From contig JACCSP010000154.1 of the NCBI GenBank assembly GCA_013812905.1, positions 1-33,152 of the forward strand: a DNA stretch of 33,152 nucleotides, written 5' to 3'. Below are positions 1 to 33,152 of the stretch, piece after piece; the stretch's first letter is position 1; every line of letters begins with the position of its first letter. A program made the translations under genes and the position numbers. This DNA comes from Pyrinomonadaceae bacterium (GTDB lineage: Bacteria; Acidobacteriota; Blastocatellia; Pyrinomonadales; Pyrinomonadaceae). Under the pieces are notes generated by a model. It worked only from the letters and a program-made list of their open reading frames with translations, had not been told where the DNA came from and ran no database searches.

Positions 1-2126
1 CCGGGAGCCTCAAGTCCTTTCCTGAACCAGAGCACTGCAGCGCGCGGCATCCCCTTGTGTACAAAGCAATGACCAAGCATGTTACAGCACTGAAGATAAC
101 GCGAGGTTCCATCGCCCGGTTTAGCAAGATTTACAGCAGTCTGAAACTCCTGGATGGCTTCGTCGAGGAGTCCCATCTCATTGTTGGCTGTGCCCATGTT
201 ATAATGCGTCTCGTGGTCCTCGCTTGAGATGGGCTCCTCTTCAGCTGCCTCCCGAAACTCCTCAAAGATCTCAGCCAAACCGGCGTCCATACCTTTTGTG
301 CCGTCAGATGAAGCGAGATCGGGGTTAGACAGGACCTCGGCAGTTTCAGCTTCCATCTTGCGGATCCCGCCGAAAGTGATGTCTAAATCTGTCGCTTTTT
401 CCGCTCGTGGTTCGATTCCGCCAAACTCAAACATTTCTGGTAGATCGTGGGGCGCTACCGAACCTTCCACGGGCTGTTCGCGTCCTAGTTGCGCACGCCG
501 AGCATCTATGTCCGGGTGGGAACCAAATTGACGTTCCACCAAATCAAGAGTGTCGGCGGCAATGTCGGCATAGCCTTGCGTAATATAAAAATCTACGCTT
601 TCCAGTTCCTGGCGCAGTAATGCCTCAGAACCTCTATTGTCGCTAACGGGCGGCGCCGGTTCTGCATGCCCTCTCAAAGTTTCATTGAGTGCGACACTAC
701 CGGATTCAAATCCTTCCATAGAGAACTCGATTCCATAACTAACCGGGGTTTCGTCGTTGAGTTCTGCGAAAGAAGAACGAGCGTCTGGCGTTATCACCTC
801 GGACACTGAATTCCATTCAAACTGATCCGCTTGAACGGTTTCATCTGTACCTGCAGTCGGAGCCTGGTCGTAGACTCCTCCGTTAAAGTCTTCGAACGAA
901 GGAACGTCACTGACGGAGGGTTCCAGAGCGAAGGCAACTTCTTCGTCTGCCTCTTGAGCTGCCCCGCCCAATGCGGCGAGTCGCTCACCATAGCGATGCT
1001 CCTCCGGGGCCAGACGAACGAGTTGCGTAAGGGCATAACGCTCGTCCTGAACAAATCCTGCCGCTTCGGCAGCTTCCGCGAGTCGTTCAAGAGCCAACCG
1101 AAGATTCTCCATGTCACGCTGCCACCAGTGAATTCTGACCAGCAGTCGCAAAGCCTCGAGGTGTTCCGGATTTCGCGCCAGCACTTCCTGCACGATTTCG
1201 TGGAGATCATTTTCCTCACGACCCGCCAGCAACTGTTCGGTGATGCCGCTCAGAACTCTGGTGGCATGGTTTACCTCGTCCAGGTTCAGATACAGCCGGG
1301 CCACCTCAATGAAACGACTGTACTTGGAAGCATCATGCGTAACGAGCGAGGCAATTACGCGCTCAGCACCTGCTGCATTCTCCGCATCAATATAGGTGCG
1401 CGCCAGCAAGGAAAGCAGCTCCAGATCGTCCGGCCGTTCTCCGAGCATTCTCTCGAGCAGCTCCGCCGCTTCATCGGCGGAACCCAACGCAACGTGAGCA
1501 GACACCACACCTTTGAGAGCGGCGTCTTCATTGGGCCGAATCTCCAAAGCTCGGGCGTAAGTCTTGAGGGCTTTCTCAAACTGACCGGTGTCGAATAGCC
1601 GAGTTGCTGCCTCCAGAAACGCTTTTGTCGCTTCAGATCCTAGATTCTCTTTGAGGTAATTTTCAGCGAGTTTTAATCTAATCTCAGTATTGTGCGGATC
1701 GAGATCGGCAACCTTGTGCAGGATCTCGAAAGTTTGTTTCGTCTTTCCGGCTCGGGTGAAAGCGTCGGCAACAATCAGATACTGAGCACGTGCATCGGCA
1801 GTCAATCCCTGCGTCGCGTAAAGTGACGCCAATTTGCTCGCGATGGCCGGATCGCGCGGCTTGAGCCGATCGATTTTCTTGTACATGGCGATCGCTTTTA
1901 AGTTGAACTCCTGCTCGCTATAGTGCTCGGCTATCCGATAGAAACAGGAAATCGCCTCGTCATTCTTGCCCTCACGCACACAAAGATCTCCGAGCATGTT
2001 CAGACTCGTCAGATCCTCCTCGTCATTCTCGACGATCTGGCGATACTCTTTGATCGCGGCGTTGATCTTTCCCTGGGAGAGGAATTTCTCAGCGGCTTTA
2101 AGAACCTTAGCCTTTTCGAAAACCAT
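1..2126 (-). CDS. Large tetratricopeptide-repeat protein (3' end outside window)
   Basis: The reading frame starts at the ATG at 2126-2124 and stays open to the left edge, so at least 708 residues are present and the C-terminus is missing. From the N-terminus (MVFEKAKVLKAAEKFLSQGK) to about residue 350 it reads as back-to-back 34-residue TPR-like helical pairs with the usual Gly/Ala/Tyr/Pro spacing, for example around GKNDEAISCFYRIAEHYS. Residues of roughly 390-600 form an acidic, low-complexity linker rich in Glu, Ser and Pro. TPR-like repeats return near the truncated end (HYNMGTANNEMGLLDEAIQE). There is no signal peptide or membrane segment, so a cytoplasmic scaffold or adaptor role is likely. 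It is divergent from the ligase-type gene across a 266-bp gap. A link with polysaccharide export is only positional, and the function is unknown. Confidence 0.85.
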   Translation of the reverse strand, partial: MVFEKAKVLKAAEKFLSQGKINAAIKEYRQIVENDEEDLTSLNMLGDLCVREGKNDEAISCFYRIAEHYSEQEFNLKAIAMYKKIDRLKPRDPAIASKLASLYATQGLTADARAQYLIVADAFTRAGKTKQTFEILHKVADLDPHNTEIRLKLAENYLKENLGSEATKAFLEAATRLFDTGQFEKALKTYARALEIRPNEDAALKGVVSAHVALGSADEAAELLERMLGERPDDLELLSLLARTYIDAENAAGAERVIASLVTHDASKYSRFIEVARLYLNLDEVNHATRVLSGITEQLLAGREENDLHEIVQEVLARNPEHLEALRLLVRIHWWQRDMENLRLALERLAEAAEAAGFVQDERYALTQLVRLAPEEHRYGERLAALGGAAQEADEEVAFALEPSVSDVPSFEDFNGGVYDQAPTAGTDETVQADQFEWNSVSEVITPDARSSFAELNDETPVSYGIEFSMEGFESGSVALNETLRGHAEPAPPVSDNRGSEALLRQELESVDFYITQGYADIAADTLDLVERQFGSHPDIDARRAQLGREQPVEGSVAPHDLPEMFEFGGIEPRAEKATDLDITFGGIRKMEAETAEVLSNPDLASSDGTKGMDAGLAEIFEEFREAAEEEPISSEDHETHYNMGTANNEMGLLDEAIQEFQTAVNLAKPGDGTSRYLQCCNMLGHCFVHKGMPRAAVLWFRKGLEAP

Positions 2127-2392: not shown

Positions 2393-3904
2393 ATGATCTC
2401 TGCACTTCACTCCCCCGCTTTCGATTCTAAATCACCCCTCGCTCTTCTTGCTCGCCGCGTTGCCACCGCAGGTTTCGTTCTTTATGCGGCATTTGCGCCA
2501 CATTCGATCGCCGGAGCGGAAATCGCCCTGGCGATAGTTGGCTTAGGCTGGCTGGTTCGTACGATCGCCACGGGAAAAGCGGGGTTTCGACGCACGAAGC
2601 TAGACTTGCCGATCTGGCTATTTTTCGCATGGACCATCGCATCGTCCTGTCTATCCCAAGAGCCGCAGATTAGCGTCGCCAAACTGCAATCCGTTTGCGT
2701 CCTCTTTCTCTTCTATCTCACCCAGGCAATTGTCACCAGAGGCAACGCGGTATTTTTAGTGTGTATCATGATCCTTTCTGGCGTGGCCGGCAGCATTTAT
2801 AGCGTTTACGATTTGCTCCGCGGACGTGGAATTGTCGCCGAAGCGGTCTCGGGGGAAAGTCCTCTGCGTATGAGCGTGGCGCCCGGGGATGTTGTTTGGA
2901 GAGTGGATGGGCGGCGAATCTACTCGGTCGACGAAATCGAAAGGGCGATCAAGGCAGTTCCTTCAGGAACAAATCTGCGGGTGAGTGTCATCACGCGTGG
3001 CGAACACGTCGAACGCACTAGCTTGGCGATCACGGATCAATTGAAACAGCTTGATGCTCCTTCGGGCATTATGGGGGGAAGTCCAACCCATCGGTTTCGC
3101 GCCTCGGGCTGGACGCGTCACTACGAAACATTTTCGGAGATTCTGCAGATCCTCGCGCAGCTCACTCTTGGGCTGGGACTGGCTAATCTAAAAAACCATG
3201 GTGCAAATCTTCGTTTTAAGTTGGCCGCTGCTGCTAGTGCGCTACTGGCGCTTGGGATTGCGCTAACGGCGATGAGAACTGTCCTAGTGGCATTAACAGC
3301 GGGCGCCTGCGTCCTTACCATTCGCGTCGCTCGAGGAAAAGCGCGTTTCCTCGTACCAGCGGCGTTAGTGCTTGTTCTGGCCCTGGGAGCGTTTATAGTT
3401 TGGCAGACTCGCGCGGAACAGGCCTTGTGGTTTCGAGACGACAGCGCTTCATTGCGTCTGACTGTGGCCTACGTTGGCGTCTCGCGAATAATGCTGCATC
3501 CTATTTTTGGTCACGGAATGGACGCTATGCACTTGCACTGGAATGAATGGGGCTTTCCGGGCCAGGAAATGCTGGGCCTGCATTCCACACCTTTGCAACT
3601 GGCTTTTGACCGCGGTATTCCCGCACTCGCTCTCTGGCTCTGGGTAATGGCGGCTTTCTGGCTGATGACAACACGAGCGGAACGGATCCTCAGAGACTCA
3701 CCTAAGAAGAACCAGCACGGCTTGCTGCTCGGCGCCACAGGAGCGATTGCCGGCTTCTTCGCGAGCTCCCTCGTTAACTATAACTTCGGCGACGGCGAAG
3801 TTGCTCTGGTCTTCTGGTGGCTGATGGGCATTGTTGTCGTACTGGCGCGGGATAACACGGCTGCACGGTTTGTCTCGGCGGTCGAAATCTCCAAGGGGCG
3901 CTGA
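2393..3904 (+). CDS. O-antigen ligase/polymerase-family membrane protein with PDZ-like insert
   Basis: The 503-residue protein has about ten hydrophobic segments and the layout of the Wzy/WaaL family, which joins or polymerises lipid-linked glycans on the periplasmic side. Typical features are the segment RFRASGWTRHYETFSEIL (about residues 234-251) entering a membrane helix, Arg-rich loops, and the late motif LHSTPLQLAFDRGIPAL (396-412), which resembles the conserved His-containing loop of these ligases. Unusually, residues of about 147-215 between two membrane segments read like a PDZ fold: a Ser-Pro-Leu-Arg strand, then APGDVVWRVDGRRI, then a helix (SVDEIERAIKAV), then two strands (LRVSVITRGE). 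It stands alone, with the next gene convergent. Ligase and polymerase cannot be told apart from sequence. The ATG has no strong Shine-Dalgarno, but the N-terminal hydrophobic helix fits. Confidence 0.85.
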   Translation: MISALHSPAFDSKSPLALLARRVATAGFVLYAAFAPHSIAGAEIALAIVGLGWLVRTIATGKAGFRRTKLDLPIWLFFAWTIASSCLSQEPQISVAKLQSVCVLFLFYLTQAIVTRGNAVFLVCIMILSGVAGSIYSVYDLLRGRGIVAEAVSGESPLRMSVAPGDVVWRVDGRRIYSVDEIERAIKAVPSGTNLRVSVITRGEHVERTSLAITDQLKQLDAPSGIMGGSPTHRFRASGWTRHYETFSEILQILAQLTLGLGLANLKNHGANLRFKLAAAASALLALGIALTAMRTVLVALTAGACVLTIRVARGKARFLVPAALVLVLALGAFIVWQTRAEQALWFRDDSASLRLTVAYVGVSRIMLHPIFGHGMDAMHLHWNEWGFPGQEMLGLHSTPLQLAFDRGIPALALWLWVMAAFWLMTTRAERILRDSPKKNQHGLLLGATGAIAGFFASSLVNYNFGDGEVALVFWWLMGIVVVLARDNTAARFVSAVEISKGR

Positions 3905-4054: not shown

Positions 4055-4879
4055 TCAGATTACGTCAGCAAAGTTTTTTCGGGTGCGAGCGAACCACCAG
4101 TAGCCAAAGAAAAAGCTGACTAAGGCGAAGACCGTGAAGTAGGCAAGGCCGGACCAGTCGGGCAACGCCCCTTCCAGCAAGATGCGCCGGTAGCTTCTAA
4201 CCAGAGATGTGAATGGATTGATGTTGATGAAAAGGCGATAGCGCCCAGGCACGAGCGATTCCGGATATATAATCGGAGTCAGAAACATCCAGGCAGTCAG
4301 GACAAGCGATATCCCTTGTGCGATGTCACGCAAGAAGACACCCAGCGAAGCGATCATCCAAGCCGCGCCGAGCGTGAACAGCAATTGCGGAATAATTAAT
4401 GCGGGCAGCCAAAACACTGAGACGTGAAGCTCGTGACGCATTATGACGATGGCGATCAAAAGGGCAAGGGTGCCGAACAACTGATTGCCGAGAGACGACA
4501 GCGCCTGCGCAATCGGCAGAGTCTCGAGGGGAAAGACTACCCTCTTTACCAAATTTGAATGGCTAACAATTGTCGTCGCCGACTGCACCAACGTATCCTG
4601 AAACATCGTCCAGGGCAGCAGACCGCAAAAAAGATATAGCGCGTAATCCCAGGGAGAACCGTTGGCACCAAAACGGGCCCCAAAGATGCCTGCAAATATG
4701 AACGTGAAAATCGCGATCATTACCACCGGTGTGAGCAGCGCCCAGATTACTCCCAACGCTGAACCGCGATAACGCGCCACGAGTTCACGCCGGGCCAGTG
4801 AGAGAATCAACTCGAATCGCCCAGGTAGTTCCCAGAGTGGTCGCCACACTGCGCGTCTTGCCGTTTGAGCGGAAATCAT
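4055..4879 (-). CDS. wzm: ABC-2 type polysaccharide export permease (Wzm-like)
   Basis: The 274-residue membrane protein has six predicted spans and the N-terminal amphipathic stretch of ABC-2 polysaccharide permeases (ELILSLARRELVARYRGSAL), followed by a first span rich in Ile and Phe. It also has the family's cytosolic segment SHSNLVKRVVFPLETLPIA and the loop NPFTSLVRSYRRILLEG near the C-terminus. With a Wzt ATPase it would move a lipid-linked polysaccharide across the inner membrane. The only candidate ATPase in the window is at 11181 on the opposite strand, about 6.3 kb from this start, whereas these two genes are usually adjacent. A zinc-ribbon methyltransferase gene lies just upstream in the same direction, and the 53-bp gap holds a heptamer repeat. 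The family call is firm; the gene symbol is by analogy. Confidence 0.92.
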   Translation of the reverse strand: MISAQTARRAVWRPLWELPGRFELILSLARRELVARYRGSALGVIWALLTPVVMIAIFTFIFAGIFGARFGANGSPWDYALYLFCGLLPWTMFQDTLVQSATTIVSHSNLVKRVVFPLETLPIAQALSSLGNQLFGTLALLIAIVIMRHELHVSVFWLPALIIPQLLFTLGAAWMIASLGVFLRDIAQGISLVLTAWMFLTPIIYPESLVPGRYRLFININPFTSLVRSYRRILLEGALPDWSGLAYFTVFALVSFFFGYWWFARTRKNFADVI

Positions 4880-5982: not shown

Positions 5983-8154
5983 CTAGCATCCTTTACGCGT
6001 ACCGTACATTCCAAAGCGGGATTGGTATTCAGCGGAAGTGATGAAGGCGCAGACCATTGCCCGATGTGCGGGCGAATCAGATCCAGTTCGATCATCGAGA
6101 GTACTCAGCCAGAAATTGTACCCACTCTCGTCCGGCTCTCGTCGGAGATAGCCAAAGTACTGGGCCAACACGAATGCCTTCGAACTCTCTTTCTTAGCCA
6201 GAGTCGGATGATCCGCCAGTCTTTGAATGATCTTGGCTCGTCCTGTGGTTGTGCCATCGTACAAAGCCGCCAGACTCGAACGCTCCGAGAAGAGATCCAG
6301 TTCCGAGCTTTGTATCAGCGAAGATATCAACTGATCCAAAAACTTATCGATTTTCTCCCCGGCGCCGTATTTTTCTAAAAATTCCTGACGAACTACAAAG
6401 CTTTTCGTAAAGCCGAGTTTGCTGCTTTCGCGGGCCTCAGGGTCATCTACAATTTGGAGCCGGTCGCTATTAAATTCTAAAAGAGTTGGGCGACGGCCGA
6501 GCGTGGCTTTGTAGACGCGATAGATGAAAGACCATGTCTCCAGAAATTCGTCTTCAATGAAACCCGCGGAGACATCGAGCCGACGATTACGAGCGCAGTC
6601 AGCGTCTGACCGGCAGCTCTCAAGCTCATCTATCCACTTGTTAACGCGCAGCTGCAAGGGTTCACGGCCGAGAAAGTCTCGATAATGTTGATTGATGAAG
6701 AAGCGCGAATCGTCGACCGGATTTGCTGCAGCGGTGTTGACGCCTGGATCGATTGTGAGGCCGCCCGGAAGGTATGCAACTTCGCCGGAGTTGGACTGGA
6801 GCCGAATGCTGTAATCGCCAAAGGAAACGTGGTCCGCAACTGTCACATCAAATCCGATTACCGGAAACAAGGTTCCGAACTGCTGCACCGTCAAACTGTC
6901 GGGATCAATGGTCATAAAAGGCGACATCACGGCGATGCCACTAATCGGCACCTGATCAACGCCCTCGCCACCAACGTAGATGGTCAGTTTCTTCCCGGCT
7001 TCCGCGGGCAGAGGTGTTGCTGAAATATCGCCATTCGTTCCCAGGAGACGAGGCTTGAGAAGGGGTGGCCCATTTTGAGGAGGTACCATAACAAAGTTGA
7101 TCCTGGTAGTTGTACCTGCGCGCAGCCGTACCCGATCGCGGAGTTCGACGCTTCGAAAAGCCCGTTGCGCGCGCGTGTGATTCCCAGGATTCATTGCCAC
7201 GCCAAAGAAGGAACCTTCCGTTTCGCCTGGACCATCGAGATACTCAGCTAGCACGCGATATTGACCGGATGGAATACTCTCGATGCGGTAGTTGCCGCTG
7301 GCGGAAGTGATGCCACTGGCGACGACGCGGCCGGAGCCGCTCTCCTCAACCCAAACATGGGCACCTTGCAAAGAAACTGGGTGTCCTCCCCACGAGCTAG
7401 TTGTCAGCTTCCCTTCGATCGAACTTAGAACTTCCGCAGACCCGTATAGGGTACGCACTCTGGTCCGATCGTCTTCGGTTAACGTTCGTTCGGTGAACGC
7501 CGGGAGTTTGTAGGTTCCATTCACACCCTGATGGGCCCGCATTGTAGAACCAATTACGTATGAGTGATCCAGACCAAGAAAATGGCCAATCTCGTGCATG
7601 AGAGTCGATTCAAGATCATACGTGCCCGGCGTGCCGTCGGTCGAGAATCGGAGCACTGTTCCGTCCGCGCCAACGGGATGCGGATTAATAGCGACGTCCG
7701 CCTCGACGATCTCCCCTGTCTGCGGATCGTAAAGCACGCGGGTACGTGCAAGGTGATGGCCGCCTCCGAAGATAGCCAGATTCTCCGCTGTCTCCGCAAT
7801 CGTTATTAGGCTTATTCCATCGCCCCCGCTCACCGGGCTGATAGACTGCACTTTCGACGAGACTGCTTCGAACCGAATGTTCGCGGCGTTGGACCAGCGG
7901 TCAAGTGCTCGATGGACAGCGGCTACAATATCGCTCTCTGGAGTTATACCTGACGCAGGCGAGGTGAGGGACGTCGATAGACTAACCCGGATAGTTTTGG
8001 TCGACCACTTTGTCCGACGCTGGGCATTACTACCGTCGAAGTCGAGCAAATTTGGAAAGTCAGACGCAAGAGGCCGAACCGGCGCGATGCATGCCAGGAT
8101 CAATAAAGCCAGAATGGAGTTGAGGAGTCGCACTCGAGAAATTCCACGACGCAA
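5983..8154 (-). CDS. Secreted matrixin-like zinc metalloprotease with DUF4214-like C-terminus
   Basis: The 723-residue protein has an N-terminal hydrophobic signal (LLNSILALLILACIAPV; the Cys at about residue 22 could be a lipobox Cys). A metzincin/M10-type protease domain follows, with the complete zinc site HEIGHFLGLDH (187-197) and a Met-turn candidate at M205. Residues of about 245-355 look like a carboxypeptidase-regulatory-like beta domain (GITSASGNYRIESIPSGQYRV). Residues of about 370-470 are Ig/IPT-like. From about 485 to the end lies a DUF4214-like region (FINQHYRDFLGREP, a Cys pair at 514/520, ending SAEYQSRFG). No matrixin 'cysteine switch' propeptide motif is visible. It is probably exported and either surface-bound or released. 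The track start is TTG at 8154, but GTG at 8133 is also possible. It shares its C-terminal architecture with the proteins at 31314 and 32466. Confidence 0.9.
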   Translation of the reverse strand: MRRGISRVRLLNSILALLILACIAPVRPLASDFPNLLDFDGSNAQRRTKWSTKTIRVSLSTSLTSPASGITPESDIVAAVHRALDRWSNAANIRFEAVSSKVQSISPVSGGDGISLITIAETAENLAIFGGGHHLARTRVLYDPQTGEIVEADVAINPHPVGADGTVLRFSTDGTPGTYDLESTLMHEIGHFLGLDHSYVIGSTMRAHQGVNGTYKLPAFTERTLTEDDRTRVRTLYGSAEVLSSIEGKLTTSSWGGHPVSLQGAHVWVEESGSGRVVASGITSASGNYRIESIPSGQYRVLAEYLDGPGETEGSFFGVAMNPGNHTRAQRAFRSVELRDRVRLRAGTTTRINFVMVPPQNGPPLLKPRLLGTNGDISATPLPAEAGKKLTIYVGGEGVDQVPISGIAVMSPFMTIDPDSLTVQQFGTLFPVIGFDVTVADHVSFGDYSIRLQSNSGEVAYLPGGLTIDPGVNTAAANPVDDSRFFINQHYRDFLGREPLQLRVNKWIDELESCRSDADCARNRRLDVSAGFIEDEFLETWSFIYRVYKATLGRRPTLLEFNSDRLQIVDDPEARESSKLGFTKSFVVRQEFLEKYGAGEKIDKFLDQLISSLIQSSELDLFSERSSLAALYDGTTTGRAKIIQRLADHPTLAKKESSKAFVLAQYFGYLRREPDESGYNFWLSTLDDRTGSDSPAHRAMVCAFITSAEYQSRFGMYGTRKGC

Positions 8155-8465: not shown

Positions 8466-10922
8466 CTACGGACTAATTGTGATAAGCGGCGCGGTGGCCG
8501 CCGGTCTGCTCGAAAAAACCGAGGTGGCCCTGGTTACGGTCACGACTACCGGGGCGTCAGGGGAGTTTGCTAATGATGCCGGTAGCCTGAAGTTTATGAT
8601 ATCCCATCCAGGCATCTCCAGATTGGGTCTAACCAGAACAATCGAGTCGCCGGTAATGTCGGTTGTGCCAACCGTAACTTTAACTTCGGCTGGGGTTACT
8701 CCTCGGACTCCAGTGAGAGTAATTTCCAGTACCGTCGGCACCGTCATTCCACTGGCATCCAGCGACGTCACGGTGAAAGGTTCACCGGTCCGAGCCGCAG
8801 GATTGGTTACATTCACAATCGCCGCACGTCCTCCAACAGTAAACAGGTCGGGCTGGGCAGGTACAATTTGCAGCAAGCCACGAAGCTGGGTGCCTCCATT
8901 CAACCTGCTGTTTACTACCACAGTGGCCACTCCCGGAACAGCTCCCAGCGGCACTACGAAATTGATCTGCCTCGAAGTCCTGCCCACGAAGTAAAGTCCC
9001 GCGGCGACGCCGTTTATTGAGACAGACACTCCATTCAGTTCCACCGGCAAGGCCGGGCTGCGCAGGGTTTCGGATCCACCACTGGCCGTTTGATCCGAAG
9101 GCGCAAACTCAACTGTGGTTCGAACAATTCCCAGTTCTCCGCGCGCGAGACCCGTAATGGTGCCGGGTGAAGGACTCGGGGTGGGGCTTGGGCTCGGGCT
9201 GGCTTCGGGAATAGGCAGCGGAAATTCACTAGCGCCCGTGAAGAACGACAAGGGCGCTGATAATTCCGAAGTCACTGTTGGACTCAAAAGATAAAAAGCT
9301 TCGACAGATCTATCAGAATTGCCGGTACCGAGTTCCGCCCCACCATGACTGTATGCAAGTCGCTGACGGCTATCGCTCGTCAACGGACGAACGCCTACGA
9401 GAAAATCATTCGCAGCCAGAGCAGGATGCTTGGAAAGCCGCGTGAACGTGTTTGCGGGTGTGGCGGGAGCCTGCGTCGCGAATATCTGCGTGACTGTATT
9501 TGGATTCAAACCCGTACTGGCCTGGTCCGCTGCAGGGAACGTTCCGTCAGGTTTGAAGTTTAACGCCGAGGCAAAAATTAGCGTGGCCGGTTGGAGCGAA
9601 TTATTGTAGTCAGTGAAAGTCGGGAAACGAATAACGTCGTTTCCGGCGGCGGCTCTTTGGCCAACCTTTACAAATGTATCTGCGGCAATGTTGTAAACAA
9701 AGATGGCGTGCGCAGCTTCGTTGGTCGCGCTATTTGCCTTAGGATCGGAGGCCAGCGACTCCAAAGCGATCAGCGATCCATCCCGGCTCAATCGACGACC
9801 GGGATGGAGCGAATTTACCAGTCTGGTTTCGTCCCTGGTGCGAGTCGCCTGGCGAACATTGCTAAACGCGGCTCCGTCGTAGCTGGCAACGTAGATTTCC
9901 AGATTTCCCCGACCGTTGCCGTCATCGTTACTTCCAGCTAGATTCGCCGTCGAAAGAAAGGCCACCACGGAACCGTCCGCTGAGATAGACGGATTCTGTT
10001 GAAACACAGAAAACGGTCGTGCGCCGCCTGTGCTCTGCGTAATTGTCGCTTGAGTGAACGCGGATGTCTGCCGATTGAAGAAAAACAGTTCCGGATTTCT
10101 GTCAGCGTTCCCTACCGACGGAACCAGATTAGCTGTGGAAACAAATGCTATGCGATTGCCGTCATCGGAAATCGTCGCATCGCGGTTGTCGTCCGCCACC
10201 TGCGGTGCAACTCCACTTGCTCCGGGCGTGGGAAGCGTGGTTGCGGGAGTATCAGTGACTCTGGCAAATGCTCCACCAGACAAAGTCACAATCGGCAAAT
10301 TAGCGCCGCTCGTAAGATCTACGTCGGCAATTGCGGGTACCTGGTAAGTCCAAATTTCCTGATTTCCATCGGCGGCCAGTGCGCCCCCAGTGTCTACGCC
10401 GTTAAAATTACCCGGATCTGGAGCGTTTGAGCTAAAAACAATCGTGTAGAAGCGTTGGTTGGTGGTATTCAGCACCGGAGCCAAGCTGATCATGGGACGG
10501 TTGTTACTGATCTCAATCTGAATCTGAGCCGGATCAGCCGGTGCAGGAGTCGGTGCCGGACCGGGAGTTGGTGTCGGGGTGGGAGCCGGACTGGCGGATG
10601 GCTTGGGAACGTTTTTGGTATTCGTTATTTGGAAAATCCGGCGCTGGGCATAATCAGCGATGAAGATTTCTCGATTACCATCGGAATTATTGCGAGCTGC
10701 AGATCTATCAGTAGCAAGATCCCCATCGGATTCGAACACCACCAATCGCCCATTCGCTGTGAGGTCATTGGCAGTCGTCCTAAATCCGCTTGGTGACGAG
10801 GTCAATTGAATCAGGAATGGCTCCGGCGTGGCGCTCGGCGTCTGGGCGCTACTCGAAGAAAATCCCCCACAGGCGAGGGCAAGCACGACCATAGCGCACA
10901 ACGAACAAAAGGCTTGCTTCAC
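8466..10922 (-). CDS. Secreted PD40/TolB-like beta-propeller protein with Pro-rich linkers
   Basis: I place the start at GTG 10922-10920, not the longer upstream frame, because GGAGGG sits at 10932-10927 with a 4-5 base spacer and the protein then begins with a normal signal peptide (VKQAFCSLCAMVVLALACGG). This gives 818 residues. The first part carries repeated PD40/WD40-like strands (ANGRLVVFESDGDL, DDGNRIAFVSTANLVP, DGSVVAFLSTANL), as in periplasmic TolB-like propellers. Pro-Thr/Ser linkers lie at about residues 105-130 and 570-590. After the second linker comes a beta domain (VSINGVAAGLYFVGR, RQINFVVP, ATVVVNSRL) resembling the 'Solibacter C-terminal' family TIGR03437. It is probably exported or surface-exposed and structural or binding in role, with no catalytic motif. 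It reads in the same direction as the metalloprotease gene but 311 bp upstream. Confidence 0.85.
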   Translation of the reverse strand: MKQAFCSLCAMVVLALACGGFSSSSAQTPSATPEPFLIQLTSSPSGFRTTANDLTANGRLVVFESDGDLATDRSAARNNSDGNREIFIADYAQRRIFQITNTKNVPKPSASPAPTPTPTPGPAPTPAPADPAQIQIEISNNRPMISLAPVLNTTNQRFYTIVFSSNAPDPGNFNGVDTGGALAADGNQEIWTYQVPAIADVDLTSGANLPIVTLSGGAFARVTDTPATTLPTPGASGVAPQVADDNRDATISDDGNRIAFVSTANLVPSVGNADRNPELFFFNRQTSAFTQATITQSTGGARPFSVFQQNPSISADGSVVAFLSTANLAGSNDDGNGRGNLEIYVASYDGAAFSNVRQATRTRDETRLVNSLHPGRRLSRDGSLIALESLASDPKANSATNEAAHAIFVYNIAADTFVKVGQRAAAGNDVIRFPTFTDYNNSLQPATLIFASALNFKPDGTFPAADQASTGLNPNTVTQIFATQAPATPANTFTRLSKHPALAANDFLVGVRPLTSDSRQRLAYSHGGAELGTGNSDRSVEAFYLLSPTVTSELSAPLSFFTGASEFPLPIPEASPSPSPTPSPSPGTITGLARGELGIVRTTVEFAPSDQTASGGSETLRSPALPVELNGVSVSINGVAAGLYFVGRTSRQINFVVPLGAVPGVATVVVNSRLNGGTQLRGLLQIVPAQPDLFTVGGRAAIVNVTNPAARTGEPFTVTSLDASGMTVPTVLEITLTGVRGVTPAEVKVTVGTTDITGDSIVLVRPNLEMPGWDIINFRLPASLANSPDAPVVVTVTRATSVFSSRPAATAPLITISP

Positions 10923-10926
10923 AAAA

Positions 10927-10932
10927 CCCTCC
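10927..10932 (-). promoter_or_regulatory. Ribosome binding site deciding the GTG start of the propeller gene
   Basis: On the minus strand GGAGGG lies four bases before GTG (10922-10920). It moves the start 31 codons downstream of the longest frame and places the signal peptide at the true N-terminus. Confidence 0.75.
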
Positions 10933-11180
10933 GAAAATAAAGACGTAGATACAAGCAGATAAGATGCCCCAGGGAGCCTGAGCAGCAGCACGCCCCGGGT
11001 GAAGTTCCAAAACAATTAATTTGCCACCTGGCACTCAAAAGAAGCGCCATTTTACGCAGAACAAGCGGGTAACCGCAAGCATGCACGCAAACAAGCCTCC
11101 GAGGCTAGACGACTTGACGCCCGCGCGGAGTGTGGCCCCGACTTTACCGCATGGCCCAGAACAGTTATCGTTTCAACCAT

Positions 11181-12509
11181 ATGAGCCTGGCACTGCGCGT
11201 TGAAAGCGTTTCCAAGGTGTATCGCATCTATGACAGGCCGAACCATCGCCTGAAGGAGATGCTTACGCGCGGCCGCTGGAAGCGACATCGCGAATTCTGG
11301 GCTCTTAAAGACGTCGCTTTTGAGATTGAAGCGGGCACCACCACAGGCATCATCGGACCGAACGGCAGCGGCAAATCAACACTCCTCCAAATAATGACTG
11401 GGACGCTCGAACCCACTCATGGGAACGTGTGGCACGAAGGTCGCATTGCCGCCCTGCTGGAACTCGGGGCGGGATTCAATGCCGAATTTACGGGAATCGA
11501 GAATGTTTTCATGAATGCCGCGTTAATGGGTTTTTCGCGACGGGAAACAGAGGTCTTACTCCCTGAGATCGAGCGTTTTGCGGAGATCGGTCCCTTCATT
11601 CATCAAACCGTCAAGACTTATTCAAGCGGCATGTATGTGCGCCTGGCGTTCGCCATCGCGGCGAGCGTAGAGCCCGACATTTTGATCGTTGATGAAGCGC
11701 TAGCGGTCGGTGATGCAGTCTTTCAGCATCGGTGCTTGCGTCGCATCAAGGATCTTCAGCAGCATGGTAGGACGGTAGTCTTCGTTTCTCATGACGCAGC
11801 CGCAGTACGCGCCTTGTGCACTCGGGCAATTCTCTTAAACGCCGGACGCGTAATCGCAGACGGCAAACCCACCGACGTGCTCAATCATTATCAGAAGATC
11901 ATTATGGAGCGCGAGGAGGAGTATGATGCGGAGACGACTGCTAGCATATCTTCCGCAGGTCCCCTTCCCCCCGACGAAAGCCTGGCGCCTCTCAGTTACA
12001 CTTATCGTCACGGAGATGGCAGCGCCGAGATTGTGGGAGCCGAACTTACTGACGCCGCCCATCGCCGCATCGAAATTAGCGAAACCGGCGAGCCATTGGC
12101 GGCGCGGGTGATCGCTCGCTTCCATCGGGACGTGGACGAACCCGTGGTTGGCTTTCTCATTCGCAACCGTCACGGCATACACGCCTACGGAACTAACACG
12201 AAAGAGCAGCAAATCGAATTCGGCTCGGTAAGACGCGGTGAGGGATTGGAGGTTAGTTTCGCGTTTAACTGCTGGCTGGGCGTTGACCAATATTCGATTT
12301 CGTTTGCGATTCACGGCCACGATGGGCAGGCTTATGACTGGCTGGATGGCGCTCTCTTCTTCAACGTGACAAGTATGACGCGGACCGAAGGGGTGGCCAA
12401 CCTCGATGCGACCGCCACCGCGCGCCGCCGCCCCGCAACCCCCCGGGCGGCGGACATAAACGATGAGAGAGCGTTAAATATCAGGCGAGAGGGCGCGGCT
12501 CATGGTTGA
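11181..12509 (+). CDS. wzt: ABC transporter ATPase for polysaccharide export with C-terminal glycan-binding domain (Wzt-like)
   Basis: From the ATG at 11181 the protein has 442 residues; the upstream in-frame extension has no ABC features. The ATPase domain has Walker A GPNGSGKST (59-67), the variant signature YSSGM typical of Wzt/TagH exporters, Walker B ILIVDEALAVGD and the switch His in VSHD. After a hinge, residues of about 275-400 form a Wzt C-terminal beta-sandwich (EIVGAELTD, VVGFLIRNRHGIHAYGTNT, YSISFAIHGHDG), which in E. coli O8/O9a-type systems recognises the modified end of the glycan before export. A 40-residue Ala/Arg-rich tail follows. It overlaps the next gene by 8 bp (12502-12509), implying translational coupling. 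Its permease partner is presumably the gene at 4055-4879, which is not adjacent. Confidence 0.93.
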   Translation: MSLALRVESVSKVYRIYDRPNHRLKEMLTRGRWKRHREFWALKDVAFEIEAGTTTGIIGPNGSGKSTLLQIMTGTLEPTHGNVWHEGRIAALLELGAGFNAEFTGIENVFMNAALMGFSRRETEVLLPEIERFAEIGPFIHQTVKTYSSGMYVRLAFAIAASVEPDILIVDEALAVGDAVFQHRCLRRIKDLQQHGRTVVFVSHDAAAVRALCTRAILLNAGRVIADGKPTDVLNHYQKIIMEREEEYDAETTASISSAGPLPPDESLAPLSYTYRHGDGSAEIVGAELTDAAHRRIEISETGEPLAARVIARFHRDVDEPVVGFLIRNRHGIHAYGTNTKEQQIEFGSVRRGEGLEVSFAFNCWLGVDQYSISFAIHGHDGQAYDWLDGALFFNVTSMTRTEGVANLDATATARRRPATPRAADINDERALNIRREGAAHG

Positions 12510-17427: not shown

Positions 17428-20088
17428 ATGAAACTCGCATACTTCAGCCCGCTCAATCCGCAGCCCTCCGGAATCTCCGACTATAGCGAGGAGCTCCTGC
17501 CTTACCTCGCCGCTGATGCTGAAATAGATCTTTTCGTGGACGGCTTTCGTCCCAGCAACCCGAAGACGACGACTCAGTTCCGCTGCTTCGACTACCATCG
17601 CGACCCATCCGCGCTGGATAGCCTCCAGGGCTATGACGCGGTCATCTATCACATGGGAAACGATCATCGCTACCATGCGGGTATTTTCGACACTATGCGC
17701 CAGCAGCCCGGCGTCGTAGTTTTTCACGACTTCGCTCTACAAGATTTCTTTCTGGGCCTGGCGCGCGTACGGGGAGATATTGAACTATATCTGAACGAGG
17801 TCGCTGCCTGCCACGGGGAGAGTGAGCGCATCAGAGCCGAGGAACATCTGCTGCGCGGGAGCGTGCCGCCGCAGGTCGCTGCCCCACTTAGTTTTCCACT
17901 CAATTGCCGCGCGGCCGGTGCCGCAGAAGGTATCATTGTGCATTCACACTGGAGCCGCTCTCGGTTTGAACGCCTCGCTCCGGGCGTTCCTCTCGCGCGT
18001 ATTCCGATGCCCGTCGCCAACAGACGCACTGACAGGTCCGTGGAAGAAACGGGATCTTCCGTCAAGAACGACAACGGACAACCTCGCGTCGTGTCAATCG
18101 CTTCATTCGGACTGGTAACTCCGGATAAAGGCATTGAGCTCACACTACGCGTACTCGCGCGGTTGCGCGATAACTATAACTTCAACTACACGCTGGTTGG
18201 TGCCGAGAACTCTTACTTTGATGTGCGCGGAATAATTCGTGATTGCGGGATGTCCGACCGGGTGACGATCACGGGGCATGTGACACTGGCCGAGTTTCAA
18301 CGCTACATTGAGGAGACCGACATCGCTATTAATCTTCGCCAGCGAACCGTCGGCGAGACCTCCGCCAGCCTTTATCGAGTCATGGCTGCAGGCGTGCCTG
18401 CCATCGTCTCCAACGTAGGAGCTTTTGCTGAGTTGCCTAATAACGCAGTGGTCAAGATCGACCATGACCGCTACACCGACGCGCTGCTGGAGGCTTATTT
18501 GCGCAAGTTGATCGAGGATACCCAGTTGCGCTTGCGCATCGGCGCCAACGCGCGACGGCACGTGCTCTCAGAACATGATGGCAAAGAGAGCGCGGCTTGT
18601 TACATTGCCTTTATCAATAATGTGATCGCAAATCGCTCGCGCAAACACCTACTCAACAAAGTGTCCGATGAATCGTCGTTGCTGGGAATACAGGGGAATG
18701 ATGAGGCTTTCCTGCGCGGACTCGCTTCCGAAGTCGCCACACTCGCGCCACTTCAAATGTTCGCCACCGTCTCCAATACCCTTGCAGAGGTGCGCGTCGA
18801 AAGCGCGCCCGTGCAAAGGTCCGGCAACGGTCATGCTGCTACGCCTCCGAGCAGGGAAGTGGCCGGACGCCTGCCCAGGCTCGCGGGCATTGATTACAAA
18901 CGCGCGGCCATCGAGTATCCAGGCAGGCTCGACGCTGAGCGCCGTTATTACCTGAAAACGAAGCCTTTCTACAATCTCAAGAATAAACCAGTCAAGCATC
19001 TCGCGGACGGTATGGATGCCGAGACGCACCGCCACTTTTCAGACTTCGCCAACATCGCTGTGGCGCTCGGTTTGCCTGCGGGTAGCAGCATCCTTGATGT
19101 CGGGTGCGGGTCGGGATGGCTGAGCGAGTATTTCTCGCGTCTTGGCTATAAGGTTCTGGGGATTGACATCAGTGATGATCTCATTCAGATGGCAGAGGAG
19201 CGCATTGAGCGTGTACCTTACGATGTGGACCACGAAACGCCGCTCCGCTGTCGTTTTCTTAAGCACGACGTAGAGACAGCTCCACTTCCAGAAAAGTTTG
19301 ACGCCATTATTTGCTACGACTCGCTGCACCACCTGGAGGACGAGGCGGCAGTCTTATCCCACCTCGCGGCGATGCTAAATATTGGTGGATTGCTTTTTAT
19401 TCTGGAGGGCCAGAAACCGGCCGCCGGCTCCGCAACGGAAGATGAGCTAAGCGACGTAATGCGCCAGTACGGAACGCTTGAATCGCCGTTCAGCGGCGAC
19501 TACTTGCGCTCTCTGCTCGACGAACACGGTTTTGCCGTGGTTGGTGACTACGTTAGCGTCAACGGCCTCTTCGAGCGCGAAATGCTGGAAGGCGATCGTC
19601 TGCCCCTAACCACGCTCGCGACGCATTATCATTACCTGACTTGCAAAAAAGTCTGCGAGGGCGCGAGTGCGGCTACGGTGCCTGACAGCCGCACTCCGGG
19701 CCTCTTGCGAGCGCAGTTTTCTATGCACTCAACTCCACCCCACCAGATCGCTCCCGGCGCGCCGCTGACGATACCACTAGCCGTACGAAATACCGGGGAT
19801 ACGCTTTGGCTTGACGGGCAGACAGTACGTGCGGGAATCGTGATGCCCGCTGTCCGAATCTTTGATGAGGCAGGCACTTTGGTCAGCGAGTTCCACGGCG
19901 AGCCACGACTTCCCTCCGCCGTCGCCCCCGGTGAAACGGTAAACATCAAGATCGAGCTCGCCTCACCGAGACTTCCCGGTTCTTACACGCTTAAAGTTGA
20001 CCTCGTCGATCAGCACGTCTGTTGGTTCGAACAGCAGGGGTCAAAACCCTTCGTGCTCAGATTTGAGGTCGGCAGTAGCCCTCCCTAG
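17428..20088 (+). CDS. Three-domain fusion: GT4 glycosyltransferase + methyltransferase + Ig-like domain
   Basis: The protein has 886 residues, over twice the length of a normal GT4. Residues 1-405 are a GT4 enzyme: MKLAYFSPLNPQPSGISDYS, then RVVSIASFGLVTPDKGIELT, then NYTLVGAEN, then RVTITGHVTLAEFQRYIEETD and SLYRVMAAGVPAIVSNVGAF. A linker of about 100 residues follows. Residues of about 515-745 are a class I methyltransferase with motif I SSILDVGCGSGWLSEYFSRL (about 551-570), the acidic GIDIS and the motif IV region FDAIICYDSLHHLED. The last 130 residues form an Ig-like module (VRNTGDTLWLDG, SAVAPGETVNIKIELASP, LPGSYTLKVDLVDQHVCWFE). One chain could therefore both add and methylate a sugar. 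The Ig-like domain also occurs at 20223 and as a relic at 15890. The frame is intact throughout. Confidence 0.9.
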   Translation: MKLAYFSPLNPQPSGISDYSEELLPYLAADAEIDLFVDGFRPSNPKTTTQFRCFDYHRDPSALDSLQGYDAVIYHMGNDHRYHAGIFDTMRQQPGVVVFHDFALQDFFLGLARVRGDIELYLNEVAACHGESERIRAEEHLLRGSVPPQVAAPLSFPLNCRAAGAAEGIIVHSHWSRSRFERLAPGVPLARIPMPVANRRTDRSVEETGSSVKNDNGQPRVVSIASFGLVTPDKGIELTLRVLARLRDNYNFNYTLVGAENSYFDVRGIIRDCGMSDRVTITGHVTLAEFQRYIEETDIAINLRQRTVGETSASLYRVMAAGVPAIVSNVGAFAELPNNAVVKIDHDRYTDALLEAYLRKLIEDTQLRLRIGANARRHVLSEHDGKESAACYIAFINNVIANRSRKHLLNKVSDESSLLGIQGNDEAFLRGLASEVATLAPLQMFATVSNTLAEVRVESAPVQRSGNGHAATPPSREVAGRLPRLAGIDYKRAAIEYPGRLDAERRYYLKTKPFYNLKNKPVKHLADGMDAETHRHFSDFANIAVALGLPAGSSILDVGCGSGWLSEYFSRLGYKVLGIDISDDLIQMAEERIERVPYDVDHETPLRCRFLKHDVETAPLPEKFDAIICYDSLHHLEDEAAVLSHLAAMLNIGGLLFILEGQKPAAGSATEDELSDVMRQYGTLESPFSGDYLRSLLDEHGFAVVGDYVSVNGLFEREMLEGDRLPLTTLATHYHYLTCKKVCEGASAATVPDSRTPGLLRAQFSMHSTPPHQIAPGAPLTIPLAVRNTGDTLWLDGQTVRAGIVMPAVRIFDEAGTLVSEFHGEPRLPSAVAPGETVNIKIELASPRLPGSYTLKVDLVDQHVCWFEQQGSKPFVLRFEVGSSPP

Positions 20089-20222
20089 CCAGGATTGTCA
20101 CAATTTAGAATTGAGGATGCGTTACGAACGTTATGTTGGATTGCTGCAAATTAACCGTAGGCCCCTTTTTTGTTATCACAAACTCGCTACCACTGGGTCA
20201 TAACGCCCTTGAAGAATCAATC

Positions 20223-21347
20223 ATGACTAGGGAAGAGATTGTTGCTGAGCTCAGGAGGCTTGAGCCGTGGTTCCACGCCATTGATCTCGGCGATGGCATC
20301 AGCACCAAGATCCGAAGCGTCATGGGTGAGCCTGTCAACCACCCGTATGGACCCTGGCAGTCGATCCAAAAATGCCTTCCCGAAGATCTGAGCGGCAAGT
20401 CGGTGCTTGATGTTGGCTGCAACGCTGGATTCTATTCCTTCGAGGCAAAGCGGCGTGGCGCCGCGCACGTGCTCGGACTAGACGCTCAGCGACACCACAT
20501 CCGACAGGCTGTCTTCGCGCGCAAGGTGCTGGGCCTGAATCTGGAGTTTCGCCGGATGAATGTTTATGAACTGGACCAACGAAGGATGGGGCAGTTCGAC
20601 ATTACTCTAGCGCTCGGGCTGATCTATCACCTCAAGCACTTAGTGCTGGCGCTTGAAAATCTTTATAACGTAACGCGGGAAACGCTGATTATCGAGACGG
20701 CTATCATGCCGCCCGAACGGGGGTCGGCATCATTCTCACATCCGCTTGGTCAAGACCATATGCGGCTGCACCCGCTGGCCCTCGTAGAAAATCCGCGGGA
20801 TGCGAAAGAGCAAGTCTTCAACTGGTTCCTGCCCAGTGTCGAGGCCTTGGAAGCACTGTTGAGAAACACCGGCTTTGACAACATCGAGGTTGTGGAGGTC
20901 AAAAACGAACGCGCCGTAGTGGTCTGTCGGAAGACCGCGGGCGGCTCCGAGGAAAGCGCGCGCCTTCATTACTTCGCTGCCCTTGCGCTCAAAGCCGGCG
21001 CGCCAGCTTGCCAGCCCGATCAGGAGCTCTCATTTACCCTCCGGGTTAAAAACTCCGGATTGACGCGTTGGCCTGCTCGGGGCGAAGGCTTGTCCGACAA
21101 AGGGGCCGTACATCTGGGCGCTCACCTGATGCATACAAACGACGAAGAGATCTCTTGGGATTACGGGCGCGCCAACTTACCCCAGGACCTCGAACCGGGC
21201 GCCGAGGCAGTGATAGACATTGTCTTGCGAGCGCCTCCGAAGCCGGGCCGGTACATCGTCGAATTCGACATGGTGTCTGAGTATATTGCCTGGTTCGAGG
21301 ACTTCAGCTCGGCGACGCTAAGACATGAGCTTACAGTCGAGCAGTGA
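20223..21347 (+). CDS. Methyltransferase (CmoB/TIGR04290-like) with C-terminal Ig-like domain
   Basis: I take ATG 20223 (MTREEIVAELRRLEPWFHAI) because the 30 codons upstream are unlike the family, giving 374 residues. Residues of about 1-235 resemble CmoB-type and 'glyco-like' methyltransferases: YGPWQSIQKCLPEDLSGK, motif I SVLDVGCNAGFYSFEAKRRG, GLDAQ, then FDITLALGLIYHLKHLVLAL and the late NWFLPSVEALEALLRNTGF. Residues of about 240-374 form the same Ig-like module as the fusion protein (LRVKNSGLTRWP, LPQDLEPGAEAVIDIVL, PGRYIVEFDMVSEYIAWFE). It lies 134 bp after the fusion gene on the same strand and ends the plus-strand block. The likely substrate is a cluster sugar; that is inference from neighbours. 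Its methyltransferase core resembles that of the gene at 21535. Confidence 0.9.
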   Translation: MTREEIVAELRRLEPWFHAIDLGDGISTKIRSVMGEPVNHPYGPWQSIQKCLPEDLSGKSVLDVGCNAGFYSFEAKRRGAAHVLGLDAQRHHIRQAVFARKVLGLNLEFRRMNVYELDQRRMGQFDITLALGLIYHLKHLVLALENLYNVTRETLIIETAIMPPERGSASFSHPLGQDHMRLHPLALVENPRDAKEQVFNWFLPSVEALEALLRNTGFDNIEVVEVKNERAVVVCRKTAGGSEESARLHYFAALALKAGAPACQPDQELSFTLRVKNSGLTRWPARGEGLSDKGAVHLGAHLMHTNDEEISWDYGRANLPQDLEPGAEAVIDIVLRAPPKPGRYIVEFDMVSEYIAWFEDFSSATLRHELTVEQ

Positions 21348-31313: not shown

Positions 31314-32237
31314 ATGATGAGAATTGCCATTGCCGTTTTCGTGATCAGCCTGAGTGCCTTGAGTGTATTGGCCCAGGCCCCCCCGACGCTAAGGATAGTA
31401 ACAGAGGTTCCCAATCTTCCTTCCGAGCTGTTTTACGGAGATATCAAAGTAAAGCCTCTGCGTCTACGGCCGGGGACCAACACCCCTATTACCATAAATG
31501 ACGCCGATTTCTTTGTTCACCAGCAGTATGTTGACTTCTTGAGCCGTATGCCGGACCAGAGTGGCTTTAACTTCTGGGTGAACCAAATTACTGGCTGCGC
31601 CGGCAACGCAGCCTGCGTCGACGTCCAACGGGTGAACTCGTCTGGTGCGTTCTTCCTTTCCATCGAGTTCATTGGCACCGGGTATTTCGTTTACCGTCTT
31701 CACAAAGGGAGCTTTGGCGACCTTCCCCGCTACGCGACTTTTATGCCCGATACGCGTCAGGTCGCTAACGGTGTGATTGTGGGGCAGGGGGACTGGCAAG
31801 GGACATTGACGGCCAATCAGACCGCATTCGCTAACGCCTGGGTTGATCGACCCGCCTTCCTTGCGCGATATCCAACGACCCTGTCGGCCACTGCGTATGT
31901 TACTAGCCTTATTGAGACCGCAGGTCTTACCGGGCAGGTGGATCCCGGCCCGATTGTCACTGAGATGGGAACTGGTTATCCCCTGGCCACGGCACGCGCA
32001 ATTGGTCTGCGCCGGGTCATCGAGAGCTCGGCCTTTGACGCCAAGGAGAAGAGTCCGGCTTTCGTGTTGATGCAGTATTTCGGTTATCTACGGCGGAATC
32101 CCAACGATGCGCCGGACAACAACCTCGATGGCTATAACTTCTGGCTGACCAAGCTAAACAACCACAACGGCGACTTTCATGCCGCCGAGATGGTCAAGTC
32201 GTTCATCGTCTCCGGGGAGTATTTCGCTCGCTTCTAA
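31314..32237 (+). CDS. Secreted DUF4214-like protein
   Basis: The 307-residue protein has a clear signal peptide (RIAIAVFVISLSALSVLAQA) with cleavage likely after AQA or nearby. Nearly all the rest is a DUF4214-like region: DADFFVHQQYVDFLSRMPDQ, SGFNFWVNQITGCAGNAACV with a Cys pair, SGAFFLSIEFIGTGYFVYRL, VLMQYFGYLRRNPNDAPDNN, and the end ASGEYFARF-like (VSGEYFARF). DUF4214 proteins are often exported and linked to surface layers or glycan binding, but no activity is established here. AGGAG at 31305-31309 suits ATG 31317 (7-base spacer) better than 31314. A strong terminator follows 20 bp after the stop. It is convergent with, and paralogous to, the gene at 32466. Confidence 0.9.
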   Translation: MMRIAIAVFVISLSALSVLAQAPPTLRIVTEVPNLPSELFYGDIKVKPLRLRPGTNTPITINDADFFVHQQYVDFLSRMPDQSGFNFWVNQITGCAGNAACVDVQRVNSSGAFFLSIEFIGTGYFVYRLHKGSFGDLPRYATFMPDTRQVANGVIVGQGDWQGTLTANQTAFANAWVDRPAFLARYPTTLSATAYVTSLIETAGLTGQVDPGPIVTEMGTGYPLATARAIGLRRVIESSAFDAKEKSPAFVLMQYFGYLRRNPNDAPDNNLDGYNFWLTKLNNHNGDFHAAEMVKSFIVSGEYFARF

Positions 32238-32465: not shown

Positions 32466-33152
32466 TCATGGAGGTCCGAAGCGGCTGCGATATTCGCTGG
32501 ACGTAATGAACGCCTTGACCATTTCCGCCTGCCGGAAGTCCCCGTTGAACTGGTTCAGCTTGCTGAGCCAGAAGTTGTATCCGGCGAGATTGTTGTCAGG
32601 CGCATCGTCCGGGTTACGCTGTAAGTAGCCGAAATACTGCATCAGCACAAAGGCCTTGTTGAACTCTTGTGCTTTCAGTGACGAGTTCTCAGCTACTCTC
32701 CGTAACGCCCGCGCCCGCGCTGCCGAGTCTGCACTGGTACCTACCATGCCAAATTCGTCAATGGCCGCTTGGCGATCCGTCGATGATGGTATGACCCCGG
32801 CGTTCGCAAACAGAGTGTCGACAAACTGAGCCGCCGTGGTTGTCGCAGGATGCGCGTTGGTAAACCGCGTTAGAGTGACAAAGTTTCCAACGAAGCTCTG
32901 CTTGTTGTTTTCCAACACCTGCTCCCAGCCGGCTGGCCCAACCACAACCCCGCTCCCGATTGTTCGCGTGTCCGGTATGAAGGGGTCTCTCCTGACGGGG
33001 AAAGGCACGTCGACTGCCAAGTCGCCGTAGGCAGCCTTGTACAATCGATAGACCAGGTAGCCGGTTTCCTGAAATTCAATCGATAAGAAGAACGCAGCGC
33101 TGGTGTCGATGCGCTTTACCCGGCACAACGCGAGGGCGTCGCAGCTGTTGAT
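32466..33152 (-). CDS. DUF4214-like protein, paralogue (5' end outside window)
   Basis: The frame is open from the right edge (no start in the window) to the TGA at 32468-32466, leaving at least 228 residues. It matches the gene at 31314 along its whole length: a Cys pair (SCDALALC), TSAAFFLSIEFQETGYLVYR, AYGDLAVDVPFPVRRDPFIP, FVLMQYFGYLQRNPDDAPDN, NLAGYNFWLSKLNQFNGDFR and the end SSEYRSRFGPP. The N-terminus with the expected signal peptide is missing. It is arranged tail-to-tail with its paralogue, 228 bp apart. The TTG at 33128 is only an internal codon. Confidence 0.9.
   Translation of the reverse strand: MNSCDALALCRVKRIDTSAAFFLSIEFQETGYLVYRLYKAAYGDLAVDVPFPVRRDPFIPDTRTIGSGVVVGPAGWEQVLENNKQSFVGNFVTLTRFTNAHPATTTAAQFVDTLFANAGVIPSSTDRQAAIDEFGMVGTSADSAARARALRRVAENSSLKAQEFNKAFVLMQYFGYLQRNPDDAPDNNLAGYNFWLSKLNQFNGDFRQAEMVKAFITSSEYRSRFGPP

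Follow-up and report, generated by a model that had tools for sequence, protein, structure and literature searches.

A predicted periplasmic PDZ domain within a WaaL-type O-antigen ligase of Blastocatellia

The membrane enzymes known as O-antigen ligases are generally portrayed as constitutive, and one would wonder what a PDZ domain could be doing inside one of them. The question is raised by an open reading frame of a Pyrinomonadaceae bacterium (assembly GCA_013812905.1, contig JACCSP010000154.1), located in a stretch of 33,152 nt that was analyzed as a whole and is called the window hereafter. From the letters of this DNA, the original prediction had read a PDZ fold over residues of about 147-215 of an O-antigen ligase-type protein, at positions 2831-3040, which correspond to residues 147-216. 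The features discussed below are listed in Table 1.

Table 1. Features of the PDZ-containing ligase and of its neighbours, in window coordinates.
Feature	Position	Strand	Remarks
TPR-repeat protein, divergent, upstream of the ligase	3..2126	-	TPR_19 2.5e-29; cut by the window start
WaaL-type O-antigen ligase containing a PDZ domain	2393..3904	+	503 aa, 12 predicted transmembrane helices
PDZ domain (predicted fold), residues 144-231, between TM5 and TM6, predicted periplasmic side	2822..3085	+	Profile, PDZ_2 and fold matches
GRG motif, residues 144-146, PDZ start, directly after TM5	2822..2830	+	G144 in 100%, R145 in 95%, G146 in 99% of 79 homologues
S224-G225-I226, position of the GLGF-type carboxylate-binding loop (putative)	3062..3070	+	G225 in 97% of 79 homologues; strand 226-228
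R236-A-S-G239 ligase loop, directly after the PDZ domain	3098..3109	+	R236 and G239 in 100% of 79 homologues
R295	3275..3277	+	Aligns with R191 of solved WaaL (profile alignment to 7tpg); invariant in 30 homologues
R355	3455..3457	+	Aligns with R265 of solved WaaL (profile alignment to 7tpg); invariant in 30 homologues
H397	3581..3583	+	Aligns with H313 of solved WaaL (profile alignment to 7tpg); invariant in 30 homologues
Wzm-type ABC transporter permease, polysaccharide export	4055..4879	-	ABC2_membrane 1.5e-20
Wzt-type ABC transporter ATPase	11130..12509	+	Matches models of teichoic acid/galactan export ATPases at 1e-66 to 1e-50

Judged by its family and its fold, the host protein is a WaaL-type O-antigen ligase. 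Residues 281-416 match the Pfam family Wzy_C (PF04932) with an E-value of 4e-14 and a score of 53.1 bits, above the curated cut-off of 31.7. The full-length protein was modelled with AlphaFold2 from an alignment of 30 homologues (mean pLDDT 89.4, pTM 0.88), and VIA-align superimposed 363 residues of this model (17-490) on the cryo-EM structure of WaaL (7tpg) with a Z-score of 31.0, an rmsd of 4.0 and 18% identity; the next rows come at a Z-score of 16.9, in a set of structures that included no solved O-antigen Wzy. Foldseek also ranked WaaL 7tpg first (1.5e-8), followed by an FtsW complex and then by PDZ domains from RseP and related proteins. Finally, a profile of residues 232-489 matched WaaL only (7tpg/7tpj, 3.4e-8). 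The identity proposed for the host by the original prediction thus rests on both the Wzy_C match and the WaaL fold. As read from the profile alignment, the ligase part keeps its catalytic residues R295, R355 and H397, the WaaL numbers in Table 1 being counted along the printed 7tpg chain. Residues R215, R288 and H338 of E. coli WaaL have been reported to be important for function and are conserved in PglL too (PMC3643930); they would correspond to R191, R265 and H313 of 7tpg. The predicted donor is most likely an undecaprenyl-linked polysaccharide, and the predicted acceptor lipid A-core. That LPS may serve as the acceptor is plausible, since 18 of 20 genomes, that of the query among them, encode a KdtA-type Kdo transferase.

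Residues 144-231 are predicted to form a PDZ fold of the RseP/HtrA type. Block means of pLDDT across the insert range from 84 to 94 in the full-length model, which displays strands at residues 147-152, 167-171, 194-201, 204-212 and 226-228 and a helix at 179-188. VIA-align matched this region with the PDZ domains of RseP/MucP (Z-score of 10.6). When the insert was modelled in isolation, its core kept a pLDDT of about 92-94 and the PDZ domain of an RseP homologue was matched at 1.0e-4. At the sequence level, a profile of 30 inserts searched against the PDB retrieved DegQ at 5.5e-18, the DegQ/DegP matches ranging from 5.5e-18 to 1e-16, and the NCBIfam models matching the PDZ part were MamE (1.3e-6) and DegP (1.6e-4). 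The Pfam PDZ_2 match is weak in the full ligase (residues 146-204, 5.8e-4, 20.5 bits) and stays under the curated cut-off of 27 when the insert is searched alone (6e-5, 23.7 bits). This low score is outweighed, since the cut-off is a curation threshold and both the profile and the fold evidence support a PDZ domain; besides, PDZ_2 matched the inserts of 29 of the 30 homologues searched on their own. Together, the insert profile, the PDZ_2 matches and the fold match rule out a chance resemblance.

The extent of the domain had to be corrected. The sequence read at 2831-3040 is indeed present, but the domain is wider than had been claimed, because the last short strand (226-228) completes the fold. 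The structural match reaches residue 230 in RseP-type chains and ends near residues 216-220 in HtrA chains. The claim that the domain stands where relatives have a short loop was borne out by 13 of the nearest ligases from other Acidobacteriota, in which the segments flanking the insert both align but are separated by no more than 5-24 residues; this also rules out that the insert is an ordinary loop. Thus, the structure prediction did return a PDZ fold, and the insert did not align with the usual loop of the family.

On which side of the membrane the domain lies was deduced from the model. The loop equivalent to that of H397 is periplasmic in WaaL. Counting back from it through the model puts the start of TM6 (residue 244) on the periplasmic side, and the PDZ domain is thus predicted to be periplasmic. 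On the opposite side are the positively charged loops (56-67, 266-273, 308-315 and 433-442, from sequence reading and the model), in agreement with the positive-inside rule. The placement of the PDZ domain relative to the ligase body in the model is only loosely supported, since the AlphaFold output gives a pTM of 0.88 and no inter-domain error.

The way in which the domain joins the enzyme is also of note. The carboxylate-binding loop lies before the domain in HtrA PDZ domains and after it in those of the RseP type. By its position, the S224-G225-I226 motif could be such a loop. It reads S/L-G225-I/V/F in the family, with the hydrophobic residue after the conserved glycine placed in the appropriate strand (226-228); the sister ligases described below as clade B read LG(I/V/F/L) there, with L224 in 93%. 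R236 sits 11 residues beyond the G225 motif, in a loop whose R-A-x-G motif is also found directly after the short loop of PDZ-less ligases from outside the class, for example as RATG in locus L163. Since the G225 motif precedes R236 and G239, a ligand bound in the groove would be expected to push against a strand that runs on into the ligase loop. The helix lining the groove (179-188) is only moderately conserved among the 79 homologues.

The PDZ ligase is widespread in its class. A relative was present in 57 of 59 related genomes, and all 30 aligned relatives carry the insert. A contig scan by patterns of the ligase part gave 218 relatives, of which the best 80 are all titled Acidobacteriota; the titles assign the family to Blastocatellia, and mostly to Pyrinomonadaceae. 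Across 297 genomes sampled from the whole phylum, a full-length match (E < 1e-98) was obtained in 29 of the 32 Blastocatellia genomes, and the PDZ domain was found in each of the 29 Blastocatellia loci checked. Three genomes, all of one genus, are without the PDZ ligase, which is therefore dispensable. Among the listed matches outside Blastocatellia, the best reached 5e-46, and none started before model position 227, which is close to the end of the PDZ domain or beyond it. For two of the PDZ-less ligases from outside the class (L148 and L149), the open frame is 713 and 819 residues long and 300-400 residues come ahead of the ligase part; these could be fusions or simply long open frames.

Of the five Wzy_C proteins encoded in the query genome, two have the PDZ domain, namely the query and one paralogue, whereas no PDZ match was obtained for the remaining three. 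In a tree of 79 homologues, rooted at its midpoint only, the carriers form one family split into two sister clades, A and B, of 36 and 43 rows (support 100/100 each), with the PDZ domain in both; the question of a common clade posed by the original prediction is thereby answered. A clade B copy occurs in the cultured Pyrinomonas methylaliphatogenes K22 (L072). The simplest reading is a single insertion of the domain that preceded the duplication of the ligase in the ancestor of Blastocatellia and was then kept. Among five close relatives, dN/dS is 0.12-0.33 for the PDZ part and 0.08-0.20 for the rest, indicating purifying selection that is slightly weaker on the domain than on the enzyme. A horizontal or phage origin was also considered and rejected, no relative being found in viral contigs (single-protein search) or in plasmids.

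Read from its gene content, the ligase locus is an ABC-transporter polysaccharide locus. The Wzm permease is conserved beside the ligase (neighbour families 8 and 27), methyltransferases and glycosyltransferases also lie downstream in the window, and the Wzm/Wzt setting recurs in several clade A loci. The ABC-transporter pathway is expected to end with a ligase of the WaaL type. The TPR-repeat protein has a long low-complexity middle; of 35 clade A loci, 22 have a member of its family next to the ligase. This protein was set aside as a PDZ ligand because it looks cytoplasmic, with no obvious signal peptide on sequence reading, and the PDZ domain is predicted periplasmic. Clade B genes are often outside polysaccharide loci, some of them near an initiating sugar-phosphate transferase (family 12). 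Clade B genes often lie (L085, L088, L097 and others) between cdaA/cdaR-like genes and a gene for a beta-lactamase-like serine hydrolase, names that come from reading the sequences of families 6, 5 and 10.

Some other proteins of the window were noted as well. The product of 17428-20088, a methyltransferase fused to a glycosyltransferase, has an Ig-like C-terminal stretch (N_BRCA1_IG 2.2e-5, below the cut-off), and the methyltransferase encoded at 20133-21347 ends in a similar one (1.1e-6, above the cut-off); such an NBR1-type tail is unexpected on polysaccharide-modifying enzymes. DUF4214 is found in three proteins (5983-8154, 31314-32237 and 32466-33128), one of which also contains matrixin-type metalloprotease and CarboxypepD_reg domains. 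A large protein on the minus strand (8466-11015) ends with the Solibacter C-terminal domain TIGR03437.

A comparison with known systems helps to situate this architecture. The query shares with WaaL (7tpg/7tpj; CAZy GT121) the 12-helix fold and the three matched residues, but the loop equivalent to TM5-TM6 is devoid of a PDZ domain in the solved WaaL. WadA of Brucella, which is bimodular, already provides an example of an O-antigen ligase carrying an additional domain in the same chain (PMC9938171, PMC10920833). The extra domain of WadA is, however, an N-terminal cytoplasmic GT25 glycosyltransferase, whereas that of the query is a PDZ domain predicted to be periplasmic. As for the domain itself, the best sequence-profile match is to the HtrA proteins DegP, DegQ and DegS, in which the loop strand comes before the domain and not after it as in the query and in RseP. 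In the site-2 protease RseP/MucP, too, transmembrane segments flank the PDZ domains, which face the periplasm and whose groove is completed by the last strand, but this enzyme carries a tandem where the query has one domain, and is a protease where the query is a glycan ligase. Thus, ligases with an extra domain and PDZ domains filtering access to a membrane enzyme are both known; the combination of PDZ and O-antigen ligase appears undescribed, as we found no description of it in open-access papers.

What, then, could the domain do? From the architecture established above we infer a partner, a ligand and an effect on the ligase. We propose, with a probability of roughly 0.5, that a periplasmic PDZ module, inserted once into a WaaL-type ligase, docks a protein partner on the enzyme or gates it. 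An RseP/HtrA-like domain in the TM5-TM6 periplasmic loop would serve as a regulatory and docking module. It would receive the free C-terminus or an unfolded peptide of an envelope partner, and peptide binding would be coupled to the access to, or the activity of, the ligation site. Such a coupling is proposed because the carboxylate-loop-like strand runs straight into the invariant R236-G239 loop. The original prediction had likewise suggested that the domain may bind a C-terminus or recruit a partner or a protease. A more specific version, which we put forward as a tentative and rather doubtful one, is that a peptide on the PDZ domain would shift the R236-G239 loop and thereby turn ligation on or off, making the attachment of surface polysaccharide dependent on the state of an envelope protein. 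The docking or gating proposal is weakened by the moderate conservation of the groove helix and the slightly faster evolution of the PDZ part, as well as by the three genomes devoid of the protein and the frequent location of clade B genes outside polysaccharide loci.

Another possibility, which we consider unlikely, is that the PDZ domain binds no peptide at all but covers the active site and limits the range of acceptors admitted to it, as the RseP PDZ tandem, a size-exclusion filter (PMC7728848), does. The closest structural match to the domain is indeed that of RseP/MucP, which likewise lies amid the membrane segments of an enzyme whose active site is recessed, and the R236 loop immediately follows it; such a steric gate leaves the conserved carboxylate-loop-type G225 unexplained, though this glycine could be structural. 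The domain could also recruit proteins by their C-termini if the enzyme transferred its glycan to proteins. PF04932 covers both WaaL and PglL enzymes (PMC3643930), a PDZ domain recruiting substrates would suit a protein acceptor, and the next-best NCBIfam model is TIGR03097, a putative O-glycosylation ligase associated with exosortase A (4.3e-8; 32.4 bits, far under its cut-off of 188.1). We nevertheless regard this activity as quite improbable. The query shares its Pfam family with PglL, but PglL_A (PF15864) was absent from its Pfam matches up to an E-value of 10, where HMMER filters may hide weak ones. Moreover, neither a pilin nor any other shared candidate substrate was found among the neighbours of the ligase loci, and exosortase genes are absent from 11 of 20 genomes, while the PDZ ligase is encoded in many of these 11. 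This patchy distribution also rules out an exosortase/PEP-CTERM partner system as a general explanation, the query genome itself having an exosortase.

That the protein would be a Wzy-type polymerase, its PDZ domain contacting a chain-length regulator, seems to us very unlikely. Wzy_C does include polymerases, and the sugar-phosphate transferase beside some clade B genes would fit with one. The Wzm/Wzt pathway, however, needs no Wzy, and the query lies in such a locus; the structural match to WaaL is also far ahead of all others in a comparison that included no solved O-antigen Wzy. Finally, there is only a slim chance that the domain is a passive spacer or a dimerisation element devoid of any regulatory role: moderate groove conservation and slightly relaxed selection would agree with this, but the domain has been kept throughout the class, in both paralogues and under purifying selection.

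We found no paper on surface-coat building in Blastocatellia, a common soil class, in which the PDZ ligase is a clear lineage marker and likely a key to this process. The PDZ domain is a contained module of about 90 residues, for which the PDZ-less relatives provide controls. Its fixation beside the active site in nearly all sampled Blastocatellia suggests that ligation can be subject to regulation or to docking with a partner. If this is true, Blastocatellia may control the attachment of their surface coat through a protein partner.
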